Assembly (NCBI RefSeq): GCF_029258575.1
Contig: NZ_JARHYI010000070.1
Span: 1-34,993 of the forward strand
Length of the DNA stretch: 34,993 bases
Direction: 5' to 3'
From: Brachyspira sp.
GTDB taxonomy: Bacteria > Spirochaetota > Brachyspiria > Brachyspirales > Brachyspiraceae
A model generated the notes under the pieces. That model ran no database searches and was not told where the DNA came from. It worked only from the letters and a program-made list of their open reading frames with translations. Of the stretch, positions 11,658 to 34,831 are shown one piece after another; position 1 is the stretch's first letter; every line of letters begins with the position of its first letter. A program made the translations under genes and the position numbers.

Positions 11658-12452
11658 CTATTCTTTCACTCTATTTGAAGCATCATTAATATCAAGTTTA
11701 TAAAGCTCATCAATAAATGCAATAGAAAAACTAGCAGGTCCTTGAGCTTTCTTTGCAGCAGATTCTCCTGCTGAAGCCATTATACACATAGCAGATGCAG
11801 CAGCAATCAAAGGTTCAGACACAGCAATCATAGCACCTGTAATTGCAGTAGAAGTACATCCCATACCAGTATTAATAGGCATTAAATTAGAACCACCACT
11901 TATATATAAAACTCTATCTCCATCTGTAATGATATCAGTTTCTCCGCTTATACTTACAACTGTATTATATTCTTTGCCTAAATGTTTACCAGCTTCCAAT
12001 GCCATATTAACATTAGCAGTGCTGTCTACTCCTTTTGTATTTACACTTTCACCAGAGAGAACCATTATTTCAGAAGCATTACCTCTTACAACTTTAGGAT
12101 TATAATTTTTAATCAAATCAATAGCTGTTTTAGTTCTAAGTTTAGTAGCTCCAGCTCCAACTGGATCAATAACAAAAGGAACATTTTTTTTATTTGCTAT
12201 TTCACATGCACTGTACATAGCCTCAATAGAATTTTTAGTTAATGTACCAATATTAATAACCAATGATGAAGCTATAGAAAGCATATCTTCAAATTCTTCT
12301 TTTTCAAATGTCATAACAGGAGAAGCTCCTACCGCAAGCAATGCATTAGCTGTAATTTGCATAACAACATAGTTGGTAATATTATGAACTAAAGGACTTT
12401 TTAATTTCATATTTGAAATTGCTTTAGATATTTCATTTTGTAATGTATTCAT
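11658..12452 (-). CDS. thiM: Hydroxyethylthiazole kinase ThiM
   Basis: ThiM phosphorylates 4-methyl-5-(2-hydroxyethyl)thiazole, letting the cell salvage the thiazole half of thiamin. The 264-residue length is standard. Motifs include PLVHNITNYVVMQITANALLA near residue 20, GASPVM, and IGTLTKN. Further on are FVIDPVGAGATKLR near 113, VRGNASEI near 139, and the catalytic-region NTGMGCTSTAITGA near 193 with Cys in the GCT(S) position. A clear AAGGAG site precedes the ATG. It is the second gene of a unit driven by the TPP riboswitch upstream of the YjiH-type gene; the intergenic gap is 33 bases. No thiE, thiD or thiC is present here. Confidence 0.95.
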   Translation of the reverse strand: MNTLQNEISKAISNMKLKSPLVHNITNYVVMQITANALLAVGASPVMTFEKEEFEDMLSIASSLVINIGTLTKNSIEAMYSACEIANKKNVPFVIDPVGAGATKLRTKTAIDLIKNYNPKVVRGNASEIMVLSGESVNTKGVDSTANVNMALEAGKHLGKEYNTVVSISGETDIITDGDRVLYISGGSNLMPINTGMGCTSTAITGAMIAVSEPLIAAASAMCIMASAGESAAKKAQGPASFSIAFIDELYKLDINDASNRVKE

Positions 12453-12485
12453 TTTATACTCCTTATTTATAATAAATTAAATAAT

Positions 12486-13832
12486 CTATCTCAAAAATAA
12501 ATATGCAAAAGGTACTGCCAATATCAAAGAAAGTATTATTCTTTCTATCCATATAATAATAATATCTCTTATTCTTATAGGAATATCAGTAGCAAGCATA
12601 CAAGGAATAGGTGCAGCAAAGTAAAGTATTTCAGAAACACATACTATAGCTATTACACTTTTAGCCAATTGACTTGAATCCATAATAATACTTGAAGAAG
12701 AAAACATCTCTACTATTGTTATAGAGCAAGCCTTGGCAACTGTATAAGCCTCATTGCCTAAACCTAATAATTTAGTGAAAGGAAGAAATATATAACTTAC
12801 AAAATCAAATAAAGGCGTATAATTAACTATTAGTAAACCTATAAATGTTATAGCCATGAAATTTGGCATTATAGATATAGATATTAATAAACCTTCTTTT
12901 AAATTTTGTATTATATTGTTTAAAAAATTACTTGATTTATCAGCTACACTTACACCTTCATACAATGCCTTTTTAAAAATATTTCCACCTGTGAATTTAG
13001 GTTCTTCAATTATATCTCTATTCAAATAACCTTTATCTGATTTGTTTCTCAAAGGGTAAAGCCTCACTGTAATTGCAGTAACTATAAATGTTATAGCCAA
13101 AGTTCCCCAAAAATATATATTCCATTTATCTATTATACCCAAAGTTTTTGCAACAACAACCATAAATGTAGTTGATACGGTTGAAAATCCCGTAGCTATT
13201 ATGCATGCCTCTTTCGTAGAATAATAACCTTCTTTATAAACTTTATTTGTTATAAGAAGTCCCACAGAATAACTTCCTATAAAAGAAGCCAATGCGTCTA
13301 TAGAAGACATACCTGGCGTTTTCCAAATAGGACGCATTATATAACGCATAAATATTCCTACAAAAGCCATAAGTCCGTAATCTATTAAAAAAGATAAACA
13401 TACTGCCCCTATTGGTATGAGAATCGCAACTTGTGTAAGAAGCCTATATGAAAAAGGCAGCATATTCGGTTTATGAAAATCTGATGGTCCCAATTTAAAA
13501 TATGCCATTATAACAAAAGGTATTGCCAAAACTTTTATAAATGAAAATACTATTTCTGTTTTATTTTTATTCCAAGATTTATTGATAAAAGGATATATCC
13601 CTCCTATCATTGTAATAATTATACCATAATAAGGATCTACAAATGGAATCTTTCTTATAAAACTAACTAAATGATCTATTGGTATTGATTTAACTCCATT
13701 AATATTTATTGTTATAAAAAACATAAATACACCAAAAGCACTTAAAATAATAAATTTTAGATAAGATAATTTGCTATACTTAATATCACTCAAATTATTA
13801 TTAATAGTTTTTGAATTAGAAATATTACTCAT
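12486..13832 (-). CDS. YjiH/nucleoside-recognition 'Gate' domain membrane protein, candidate thiamin-precursor transporter
   Basis: The 448-residue protein has about ten or more hydrophobic helices and resembles the YjiH family (COG3314), which carries the nucleoside-recognition/Gate domain. Recognisable parts are FGVFMFFITI near residue 33, GIIITMIGGIYPFI near 69, an IDALASFIGSYSVGLLITNKVYKEGYYSTKEACIIATGFSTVSTTFMVVVAKT stretch between about 175 and 230 (only its outline is given here as the helix-loop-helix core), and a late EMFSSSSIIMDSS segment. Substrates of YjiH proteins are not established. The TPP riboswitch immediately upstream and thiM immediately downstream argue that this copy moves thiamin, hydroxyethylthiazole or another thiamin precursor. 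A TAGGA site precedes the ATG. Identification of the family is good; the substrate is inference. Confidence 0.8.
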   Translation of the reverse strand: MSNISNSKTINNNLSDIKYSKLSYLKFIILSAFGVFMFFITININGVKSIPIDHLVSFIRKIPFVDPYYGIIITMIGGIYPFINKSWNKNKTEIVFSFIKVLAIPFVIMAYFKLGPSDFHKPNMLPFSYRLLTQVAILIPIGAVCLSFLIDYGLMAFVGIFMRYIMRPIWKTPGMSSIDALASFIGSYSVGLLITNKVYKEGYYSTKEACIIATGFSTVSTTFMVVVAKTLGIIDKWNIYFWGTLAITFIVTAITVRLYPLRNKSDKGYLNRDIIEEPKFTGGNIFKKALYEGVSVADKSSNFLNNIIQNLKEGLLISISIMPNFMAITFIGLLIVNYTPLFDFVSYIFLPFTKLLGLGNEAYTVAKACSITIVEMFSSSSIIMDSSQLAKSVIAIVCVSEILYFAAPIPCMLATDIPIRIRDIIIIWIERIILSLILAVPFAYLFLR

Positions 13833-13911
13833 AAAAAATCCTAATATATATATGAATTAATAATTTAGAGAAACCTTAATGAAAAAATTACAAGTGCATA
13901 AAAAATAAAAA

Positions 13912-13941
13912 ACGAGACCAATTTTAGAAAACTGATCTCGT
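13912..13941 (-). terminator. Terminator hairpin of the TPP riboswitch expression platform
   Basis: On the minus strand ACGAGATCA pairs with TGGTCTCGT, extended inward by TTTT/AAAA, and the hairpin is followed by a TTTTTATTTTT run (13900-13911). It lies between the riboswitch aptamer and the YjiH-type start codon, about 70 bases before it. It fits a thiamin pyrophosphate-promoted transcription stop. Confidence 0.85.
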
Positions 13942-13951
13942 ATCTAATCAA

Positions 13952-14060
13952 TACAAAATATTTCCCTACACTGGCATTATCCAACAGGTTATAAGGGTCT
14001 AAGTTTTAAAATAGAAATTAAACTTACTCTCAGCCTTTTAAGCTCCCCTAAATATATATT
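13952..14060 (-). ncRNA. TPP (thi-box) riboswitch
   Basis: The minus strand contains the conserved thi-box parts in order. These are AGGGGAGC, GGCTGAGAGTAAG (CTGAGA at 14028-14033), a variable A/T hairpin, GACCCTTATAACCTG, and GGATAATGCCAGTGTAGGGA (13963-13982). The closing P1 stem is ATATTT with AAATAT. This is the aptamer that binds thiamin pyrophosphate. A transcription terminator follows, so high TPP should turn off the downstream YjiH-type gene and thiM. Confidence 0.95.
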
Positions 14061-14062
14061 TT

Positions 14063-14090
14063 ATTATACCTTAAATATTTATTATTTCAA
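14063..14090 (-). promoter_or_regulatory. Promoter of the TPP riboswitch transcript
   Basis: On the minus strand TTGAAA (14085-14090), a 16-base spacer and TATAAT (14063-14068) place the transcription start at about 14056, exactly at the 5' edge of the riboswitch aptamer and just past the uvrC stop codon. Confidence 0.75.
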
Positions 14091-32118: not shown

Positions 32119-32916
32119 TCAGATATTAAATTTGATAGTATTAATAATATCATTCAGTTTATTAATTTTTTCAACAATTCTTTTTTGTTCTTCTATCGAA
32201 GGTAATGGAATATAGAGAGCATTTAAGCTATCAGTATTTAAAGTATTTCCCTTAATTGCTGTTTTAGTATCACCAGATTGAGAAATTAAAGGCATTATTA
32301 AAAATAGGTAATTTGTTATTATCTTATCACTATCAATAAATGGATGAATAGATATAATAGCTTCATTATGAAATGCATCTATTCCCAAAATTGATACTTT
32401 ACCTACTGTAAGTTTAAAACTCATTAAAAGAGTTCCTGCAGTTGATATTCTATTTTTAAATATTTTTTCCATAGAATATTCATTTACTTTTTCTTTAGTT
32501 TCATATAGAATACCATCAGGTATAAGATCAGCTATAGAAACCCAAGGAAAAGTAGAATTATCCCAATATTCATTTTCTTTTCTAGGAGGTGTTTTACCCA
32601 TTGAATATGATACAAGGTTATTAAATCTTACCCAAGTCCAACTATCAGGTATTTCAAAAGGAAGCTCTTCATCTATGCAAACATCTTTCAAAATATTTTT
32701 GCCGTCTGTAATTCTTTCATAATATGAACCGTCTTTCTTATATATCTCGCTTGTAGTTTTATCTTTTTTTATCTTGCCTTCTTTTATTAAACTTTCTTTT
32801 TCTTCCTTTATGCGTTTCAAAAGTTCTTCTACTGGCTCATCTCTTTTATTTTGCTCTGTGAGTTTGCCTTCAACTGCCATTTGAAGTATTGATTTTTTTA
32901 ATTCTGATGCTGTCAT
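32119..32916 (-). CDS. hsdS: Type I restriction-modification specificity subunit HsdS, half length
   Basis: HsdS recognises the target sequence for a type I restriction-modification complex. This 265-residue protein has the common N-terminal start (ASELKKSILQMAVEGKLTEQ, then a charged helix with EELLKRIKEEKE). It continues with EELPFEIPDSWTWVRFNNLV, then one target-recognition domain, and ends at the conserved LPSIEEQKRIVEKINKLND helix. Full-length HsdS proteins (about 400-460 residues) have a second recognition domain after this helix, which is absent. A half subunit could work only as a dimer; otherwise it is a truncated remnant. The stop lies next to the terminator shared with rnr. The matching hsdM and hsdR genes upstream are damaged, so the locus is probably inactive. 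Confidence 0.85.
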   Translation of the reverse strand: MTASELKKSILQMAVEGKLTEQNKRDEPVEELLKRIKEEKESLIKEGKIKKDKTTSEIYKKDGSYYERITDGKNILKDVCIDEELPFEIPDSWTWVRFNNLVSYSMGKTPPRKENEYWDNSTFPWVSIADLIPDGILYETKEKVNEYSMEKIFKNRISTAGTLLMSFKLTVGKVSILGIDAFHNEAIISIHPFIDSDKIITNYLFLIMPLISQSGDTKTAIKGNTLNTDSLNALYIPLPSIEEQKRIVEKINKLNDIINTIKFNI

Positions 32917-32985
32917 GTTGCTTCCTATTATTGTTATGCTCGAAAAATCCTATAAACTCCTAGATAATAATTTAAATTTTAATAT

Positions 32986-33046
32986 TGCAGGGCTTTGCCC
33001 CGCACCCCAGTTCTTTTATTGGTATAAAAGAACCAAAAAAACTGCA
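32986..33046. repeat. GC-rich palindromic intergenic element
   Basis: About 60 bases bounded by TGCAG and CTGCA hold two nested hairpins: GGGC-ttt-GCCC at the left and GTTCTTTTAT / ATAAAAGAAC with a four-base loop at the right. The G/C-rich start is strikingly unlike the surrounding AT-rich DNA. It has the appearance of a dispersed REP-like or miniature element, lying between hsdM and hsdS. Only one copy is in the window. Confidence 0.6.
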
Positions 33047-33110
33047 TTTATATACAAACAATTAATATTATATTTTTTACTATAAACAAATATTCAAAAC
33101 TATTTATATA

Positions 33111-33797
33111 TTATTTCAATATATTCATTATGTTATCAAGCACTCTGTCTATATCCGCGTCCAAACTCTTCCTATGCTCCTGATACTGTTTTATAAGTTC
33201 GTCCGGTGGAAGTATTTCCTCCTCCTCATTAGGGTATCCGCATAAGTCTATATTATAATTCCTTTCTATTATCTCATCAATACTGTATTTTCTGGTCTTA
33301 TCAAAACCGTCTGCACTAATCTCTTTTCTATTATTCCACCATTCAAATACTTCATTAAAATGTTCAAGTTTCATAGGTTTAGTTTTTGAGAAGTTTTTAT
33401 ATCCTTCGGGCATATCAAGTCTATACACCCAAGTTTCTTTTGTGGAATGCGTTTTATCAAAGAATAATATATTAGTTGTAATAGATGTATAAGGAGCAAA
33501 AACACTATGAGGCATACGCACTATAGTATGTAAGTTAAACTCTTTAAATAATTTTTTCTTTATAGACACTTTTATATTATCAGTACCGAATAAAAATCCG
33601 TCAGGAAGTATTACTGCACTTCTTCCATTGAGTTTAAGTCTATACATTATAAGAGTAACAAATAAATCTGCTGTTTCGCTGCTTCTTAAATCAGGCGGGA
33701 AATTCATTTTTATATTTTCTTTTTCATTTCCTCCATAAGGCGGATTCATTACTATAATATCAAATTTATCGCTTTCTTTAAAATCTCTTATATAACT
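33111..33797 (-). pseudogene. hsdM: Type I restriction-modification DNA methyltransferase HsdM, C-terminal part only
   Basis: The frame holds the second half of an N6-adenine methyltransferase HsdM: RDFKESDKFDIIVMNPPYGG with the catalytic NPPY motif, then SSETADLFVTLIMYRLKLNG, AVILPDGFLFG, and a C-terminal helical part ending in DNIMNILK. The SAM-binding motif I and the N-terminal helical domain are missing. The frame opens within the fused hsdR end: upstream of residue 1 it meets a stop at 33798-33800. The ATG of NPPY is not a natural start. A deletion has joined it to hsdR out of frame. No active methyltransferase is expected. Confidence 0.85.
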
Positions 33798-34831
33798 TTA
33801 AATGGAGCAAGAAATCCGTCATCTATTCCCTGTTTTAAACTATAAGTATAAATAGGATCTCCAAAATAATTAATATTAGAAACATATTTAGTTTCTTTTG
33901 GAGTAGCTGTCATACCTATTTGAACGGCACTAGAAAAATATTCTAAAATCCTTCTCCACAATGAATCATCTTTAGCAGAACCTCTATGACACTCATCAAC
34001 TATAATCAAATCAAAAAAATCTTTGCTGAACTCTCTAAAAATTTCTTTATCTTCATTTGTTATTAATTGCTGATAAAGTGATAAATAAACTTTATAAGCA
34101 CTATTCATTTTTCTATGTTCTATTTTAATCATAAAGTCTTTAAATATTTTAAAATCTTTATCTTTAGTTTGATCAACTAATATATTTCTATCTGCTAAAA
34201 ATAATATTTTCTTAGCTAGATTAGCTTCTATAAATCGGTATATAATTTGAGATGCAGTATAAGTTTTTCCTGTACCTGTTGCCATTACAAGAAGTATTCT
34301 TTTCTCTCCTTCAGACGCTGCTTTAACAGTTCTATTTATTGCAATTCTTTGATAATATCTAGGACTATTTGAACCCTGTCTGTAATAATAAGGCGATGTA
34401 ATTATTTTTTCTTTTTCAGTATCTATATTAGAATCTTGTTTATATCTATTCCATAATTCTTCAGGACTAGGAAAATCATATAAAGAAATTTCTCTTTCCT
34501 CTCCTGTTATCATATTATGTTCTAAAAATCCAGAACCATTTGAGCTGTATACAAAAGGCAAATCGAGTATATCAGCATAATTAATACCCTGCTGAATTCC
34601 ATCTCCCAAATTATGTTTATCATTTTTAGCTTCGATCACTGCTAAAGGTATATTTGATTTATAAGATAATAAATAATCTGCTCTTTTTGGTTTATCTCTT
34701 ACAACATCTTTACCTTTCAATATAAAACGTCCATTAGTAAATGCATACTCATAACTTATTTGATTATCTTTCCAGCCTGATTTTTTAATTGCAGGAGTTA
34801 TTATTTTCTGTTTTACATCTTCTTCTGTCAT
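33788..34831 (-). pseudogene. hsdR: Type I restriction endonuclease HsdR, N-terminal 347 residues only
   Basis: The protein starts normally with MTEEDVKQKIITPAIKKSGW. The nuclease domain has Asp52, Glu67 and Lys69 (ADYLL, then AVIEAK) with a QQGINYA motif near 80. The first helicase domain has Walker A ATGTGKT near 184, VDECHRGS near 278, and TATPKE near 308. It ends at GFLAPFKVI followed by a stop. Family members run to roughly 750-800 residues, so the second helicase domain and the C-terminal contact region are lost. The break lies exactly where hsdM sequence begins, so a deletion spanning the hsdR 3' half and the hsdM 5' half is the simplest cause. A TGGAG site precedes the ATG, and a TATAAT lies about 30 bases further upstream. 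Confidence 0.85.

Follow-up and report, generated by a model that had tools for sequence, protein, structure and literature searches.

The window, a stretch of 34,993 nucleotides from Brachyspira sp. (contig NZ_JARHYI010000070.1 of assembly GCF_029258575.1), carries on its minus strand, in order of transcription, a promoter, a TPP aptamer, a terminator, a gene for a YjiH-type membrane protein and thiM, the two genes being separated by 33 bp (Table 1). An earlier note made from the DNA letters had proposed the promoter, a full thi-box aptamer, the terminator and both genes, all of which were found where it had placed them, and the TPP-controlled operon of a candidate transporter and ThiM is confirmed as real and as conserved across the genus. 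ThiM scores above curated equivalog cut-offs (TIGR00694, 273.8 versus 256.4; NF006830, 321.6 versus 180). The YjiH protein contains a Gate domain (PF07670, 48.1 bits versus a cut-off of 29.6) and is 40–44% identical to records annotated 'YjiH family protein', with its nearest named relatives in B. hampsonii and B. pilosicoli; against the CD0519/CD1768 family NF049989 it reaches 33.4 bits, far below the curated cut-off of 300. Elsewhere in the window, the open reading frames at 32119–34831 look, by eye, like parts of a type I restriction-modification system.

Table 1. Elements of the TPP-controlled yjiH–thiM operon in the window
Feature	Position	Strand	Evidence
Sigma-70-like promoter, TTGAAA-N16-TATAAT	14063..14090	-	11/12 consensus matches; consensus match only
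TPP riboswitch aptamer (RF00059)	13947..14059	-	Rfam covariance-model match, full length 1-105
Intrinsic terminator of the expression platform	13912..13941	-	13 pairs + T tail; expected ~0 in shuffles
yjiH-like gene of type A; polytopic Gate-domain membrane protein of 448 aa	12486..13832	-	PF07670
thiM, hydroxyethylthiazole kinase, 264 aa	11658..12452	-	PF02110, 269.9 bits

With 55.8 bits the aptamer exceeds the gathering score of 54.3 (E 1.7e-8, calculated over the whole window), and the aptamers of relatives mostly score 56–69 bits with the same model. Its core is invariant across 17 aligned Brachyspira leaders, which rules out a spurious or chance riboswitch, and the promoter region is largely retained in many of the aligned relatives. 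The expression platform expected of a TPP riboswitch is provided by the single intrinsic terminator of the leader, whose hairpin, when folded by itself, has an energy of -14.9 kcal/mol (z -4.7). An identical hairpin sequence is present in G007, G001, G018, G041 and G014, the last of which has no yjiH, while other Brachyspira leaders carry a weaker, A–U-rich version. When a longer piece of the leader is folded, an alternative structure is predicted in which the GCCAGU of the aptamer pairs with the 3' arm of the terminator; this is the pairing that an antiterminator would need, and we infer the switching itself. Judged from this anatomy, the leader would be read through at low TPP, allowing transcription of yjiH and thiM, and binding of TPP would let the terminator form and shut both genes off.

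Within Brachyspira, a genus of gut spirochaetes, every one of the 16 genomes with a full-length yjiH has a TPP aptamer immediately before the gene, about 90–120 bp away; a seventeenth genome (G013), in which yjiH is split over contig ends, is outside this count. Each genome holds one or two TPP aptamers, never more, and the link to yjiH is therefore beyond chance; recurrence in 16 genomes also rules out a one-genome oddity. Two types of yjiH occupy the same slot between riboswitch and thiM. Type A (the window, G019, G007, G003, G001 and G041) is 91–94% identical to the window copy and its operons lack phzF; type B is about 70–73% identical to the window copy and is followed by a PhzF-family gene and then thiM. 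This additional gene, which also lies under the TPP riboswitch (L071 4652–5443, minus strand; L008–L011, L013–L017), encodes a protein for which we know of no role in thiamin metabolism. Between G003 (type A) and G016 (type B), thiM is 96% identical and yjiH only 71%, with dS values of 0.29 and 1.01, respectively, and thus the yjiH of the slot has changed by exchange or differential loss. The dN/dS of yjiH is 0.06–0.08 within type A, equal to or below that of thiM, and about 0.19 between the types; by these ratios the gene is under strong purifying selection, and the low values within type A disfavour a decaying passenger gene. In four species with good genomes (G011, G014, G017 and G024) yjiH is missing and thiM follows the riboswitch directly, so the importer is not essential for retaining ThiM.

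Searching for genomes in which a thi-box RNA precedes yjiH had been proposed in the earlier note, and the 16 Brachyspira genomes are what such a search returns; outside the genus, however, an Rfam scan found no TPP aptamer adjoining yjiH at any of 30 loci. The sole TPP match there (L131) lies about 5.7 kb from yjiH, before a ThiT-like gene. The association of YjiH with TPP riboswitches thus stands for Brachyspira but is unsupported as a general trait of the family. Ten of the 30 outside loci have hut genes (HutH, HutU, HutI, formiminotransferase, formimidoylglutamase-like) within a few kb of yjiH, namely those of Clostridium (L024, L025), other Clostridia (L117, L122, L125 and L126), a Brachyspiraceae genus other than Brachyspira (L159), Treponema-like spirochaetes (L156, L157) and one more spirochaete (L160); the link is weakest in L126, where a single protein of the arginase family provides it. 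None of the hut-linked loci scanned with Rfam has a TPP riboswitch. Plasmid records are annotated with the orders hutH–yjiH in Sinorhizobium meliloti and hutI–hutH–hutG–hutU–yjiH–hutD in Pseudochrobactrum. We take COG3314 to be the YjiH family. Its proteins have been assigned to HutC regulons, with histidine transport as their proposed function (PMC5343134). The members encoded in hut operons (L257, L258) share with the window protein the family, 40–44% identity and the predicted membrane role, but adjoin hutH/hutU/hutI/hutF and have histidine as their proposed substrate. In a yjiH tree the Brachyspira sequences form a clade with full support that lies within the outside relatives, its nearest neighbours being the Clostridia L119–L121 and L118, and L160; no hut genes lie near the four Clostridia (L118–L121), and the argument for an azole substrate is therefore indirect.

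Other features of the outside loci include, by eye, an aminotransferase and an ornithine-cyclodeaminase-like protein in L120, whose PhzF is only 27% identical to that of Brachyspira. In Treponema-like spirochaetes TD-1 RNA (RF03155) occurs near yjiH (L156 4989–5107, directly before the gene; L158 8662–8780), with TD-2 matches on the opposite strand. A regulator-like protein of about 1020 aa directly precedes yjiH in Clostridia hut clusters (L024 2793–5855, L117 6567–9632, and L118; by eye), in L024 and L117 a DapF-like protein follows closely (by eye), and an azaaromatic (yjdF) riboswitch is found about 1 kb downstream of yjiH in L128 (8437–8571).

The family context bears on one of the two chief rivals to the interpretation developed below, according to which YjiH has kept histidine, urocanate or a related amino acid as its cargo and sits between riboswitch and thiM as a passenger, TPP-regulated because of where it lies. 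The histidine-utilisation setting of the family outside Brachyspira (for COG3314, PMC5343134), the loss of yjiH from four species that keep riboswitch and thiM, and the presence in type B of a further gene with no known thiamin role would all accord with this. We nevertheless regard it as unlikely, as yjiH is kept in 16 genomes, always at this position and in two divergent types, and is under strong purifying selection; moreover, no HutH, HutU, FtcD or HutG homologues were found in the 63% of the close relative G007 (1.6 of 2.56 Mb) that was searched, and G007 may thus lack histidine degradation.

Considering the question of what a TPP-regulated importer would supply, profile searches for the pathway in 26 Brachyspira genomes found no ThiC, no convincing ThiG and no ThiT (PF09515), the last having been reported missing at the locus in the earlier note. 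Matches to ThiG in 10 genomes are fragmentary (21–34 bits over about 65–90, at most 92, of 247 positions) and were read as TIM-barrel scraps. ThiE was found in 24 of the 26 genomes, including every high-quality one. TPK was not found in 24 genomes, the window's among them, all of which have ThiL above cut-off; the only genomes with TPK, G021 and G006, are the two in which ThiL does not exceed it. The final step to TPP thus differs within Brachyspira, being catalysed by ThiL or, in one lineage (G021, G006/L068), by TPK, and in G021 the operon runs riboswitch–thiM–thiE–HAD phosphatase–thiD with a divergent thiM (38%). The window's genome has ThiM, ThiE and ThiL, and ThiD was found in G007; with ThiC, convincing ThiG, ThiT and TPK missing, TPP would therefore have to come from preformed thiazole and pyrimidine. 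We predict that the organism makes TPP from salvaged hydroxyethylthiazole (HET) and HMP via ThiM, ThiD, ThiE and ThiL, and that it does not phosphorylate thiamin directly. A survey of gut genomes assigned 452 of them to the type that salvages both HET and HMP, and found the HET transporter ThiW in only 64% of human gut HET auxotrophs (PMC6593275).

This dependence on preformed moieties makes HET a likelier substrate of YjiH than intact thiamin; of the two cargoes between which the earlier note had left the choice, HET fits the pathway content and thiamin is disfavoured by the lack of TPK. The other chief rival is that YjiH imports intact thiamin, which TenA would split inside the cell before ThiM, ThiD and ThiE rebuild TMP and ThiL converts it to TPP. 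TPP riboswitches often control thiamin transporters, ThiT is missing from the 26 genomes, and TenA lies under a second TPP riboswitch in several species and elsewhere in G007. With no TPK in the genome and no convincing match to ThiK in the 63% of G007 covered by the search, imported thiamin would not be directly phosphorylated and would need cleavage first, e.g. by TenA, and the substrate of the hut-linked relatives is presumably a smaller azole; we therefore consider thiamin import decidedly improbable.

In Brachyspira the second TPP riboswitch lies before a gene for an OppA-like SBP_bac_5 lipoprotein (L066 1–3219, on contig C122 of the window's genome, G000; L164, L167 and L169). The SBP_bac_5 gene is followed by those for TenA and a rhodanese-like protein in G000, G016, G017 and G024, but not by TenA in G011 and G014, and the TenA of G007 is at another place. 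The SBP_bac_5–TenA–rhodanese unit is a candidate operon for salvage of pyrimidine or thiamin. Since it places a binding protein and a pyrimidine-side enzyme, TenA, under the second riboswitch, the thiazole side would be left to yjiH–thiM. At least eight further SBP_bac_5 paralogues are present in the searched part of G007.

An AlphaFold2 model of YjiH built from 34 homologues (pLDDT 85, pTM 0.83) was compared with known structures using Foldseek, and the best 16 PDB matches were all concentrative nucleoside transporters (CNTs; probability 1.00; TM 0.37–0.52, with high rmsd; 0.37–0.48 to CNTs by query length). CNTnw, vcCNT and human CNT3 were the best structural matches, at 12–15% identity and TM of about 0.45. 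A sequence-profile search of PDB sequences with E up to 1 returned no CNT chain; its only matches were to MotA and were judged spurious. CNTs are elevator-type cation symporters. The model supports YjiH as a secondary transporter, with a predicted CNT-like elevator fold, and agrees with the presence of the Gate ('nucleoside recognition') domain, without being proof of CNT membership. The fold also raises the idea that the pyrimidine moiety (HMP or an aminopyrimidine) is the cargo of YjiH, as a CNT imports a nucleoside-like compound, in an organism that lacks ThiC and needs pyrimidine; however, gene order pairs yjiH with the thiazole kinase, and TenA and the binding protein stand under the other riboswitch, which makes pyrimidine import very improbable.

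Histidine, urocanate and HET are all 1,3-azoles with a side chain. The interpretation that we prefer, HET import, is that a transporter descended from a histidine/urocanate family came under the control of TPP in Brachyspira, and that YjiH, as a CNT-fold secondary transporter, would import HET, which ThiM would phosphorylate, ThiE would join as its product to the pyrimidine HMP-PP, and ThiL would carry on to TPP. We put at about an even chance that the locus is a TPP-repressed B1 salvage operon in which a hut-type azole importer has turned HET importer; we infer the substrate, direction of transport and energy coupling of YjiH. The literature that we searched holds no proven substrate for the YjiH family, so the earlier note's view that none is settled still holds experimentally; nor did it yield relevant papers linking YjiH to thiamin or describing Brachyspira TPP riboswitches.

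ThiW, TPP-regulated in the known cases, and ThiU belong to a different protein family from Gate/YjiH. Both are predicted HET transporters (PMC6593275) and, like YjiH here, are proposed to import HET for ThiM. ThiT, the ECF thiamin component, likewise represents B1 uptake under TPP-riboswitch control, in a family unrelated to YjiH. HET uptake is a recognised gap (PMC6593275), for which this locus offers a concrete candidate from another family, found in organisms whose genes appear to leave preformed thiazole and pyrimidine as the sole routes to TPP. The Brachyspira YjiH gives the impression of a histidine-type importer redirected to a B1 building block. That it is a dedicated CNT-like HET importer under TPP control is a tentative proposal, somewhat short of an even bet; if true, it would represent a new family of B1-precursor transporters, in which an azole transporter has shifted from imidazole to thiazole, and it suggests 1,3-azoles as a testable substrate class for the widespread YjiH family.
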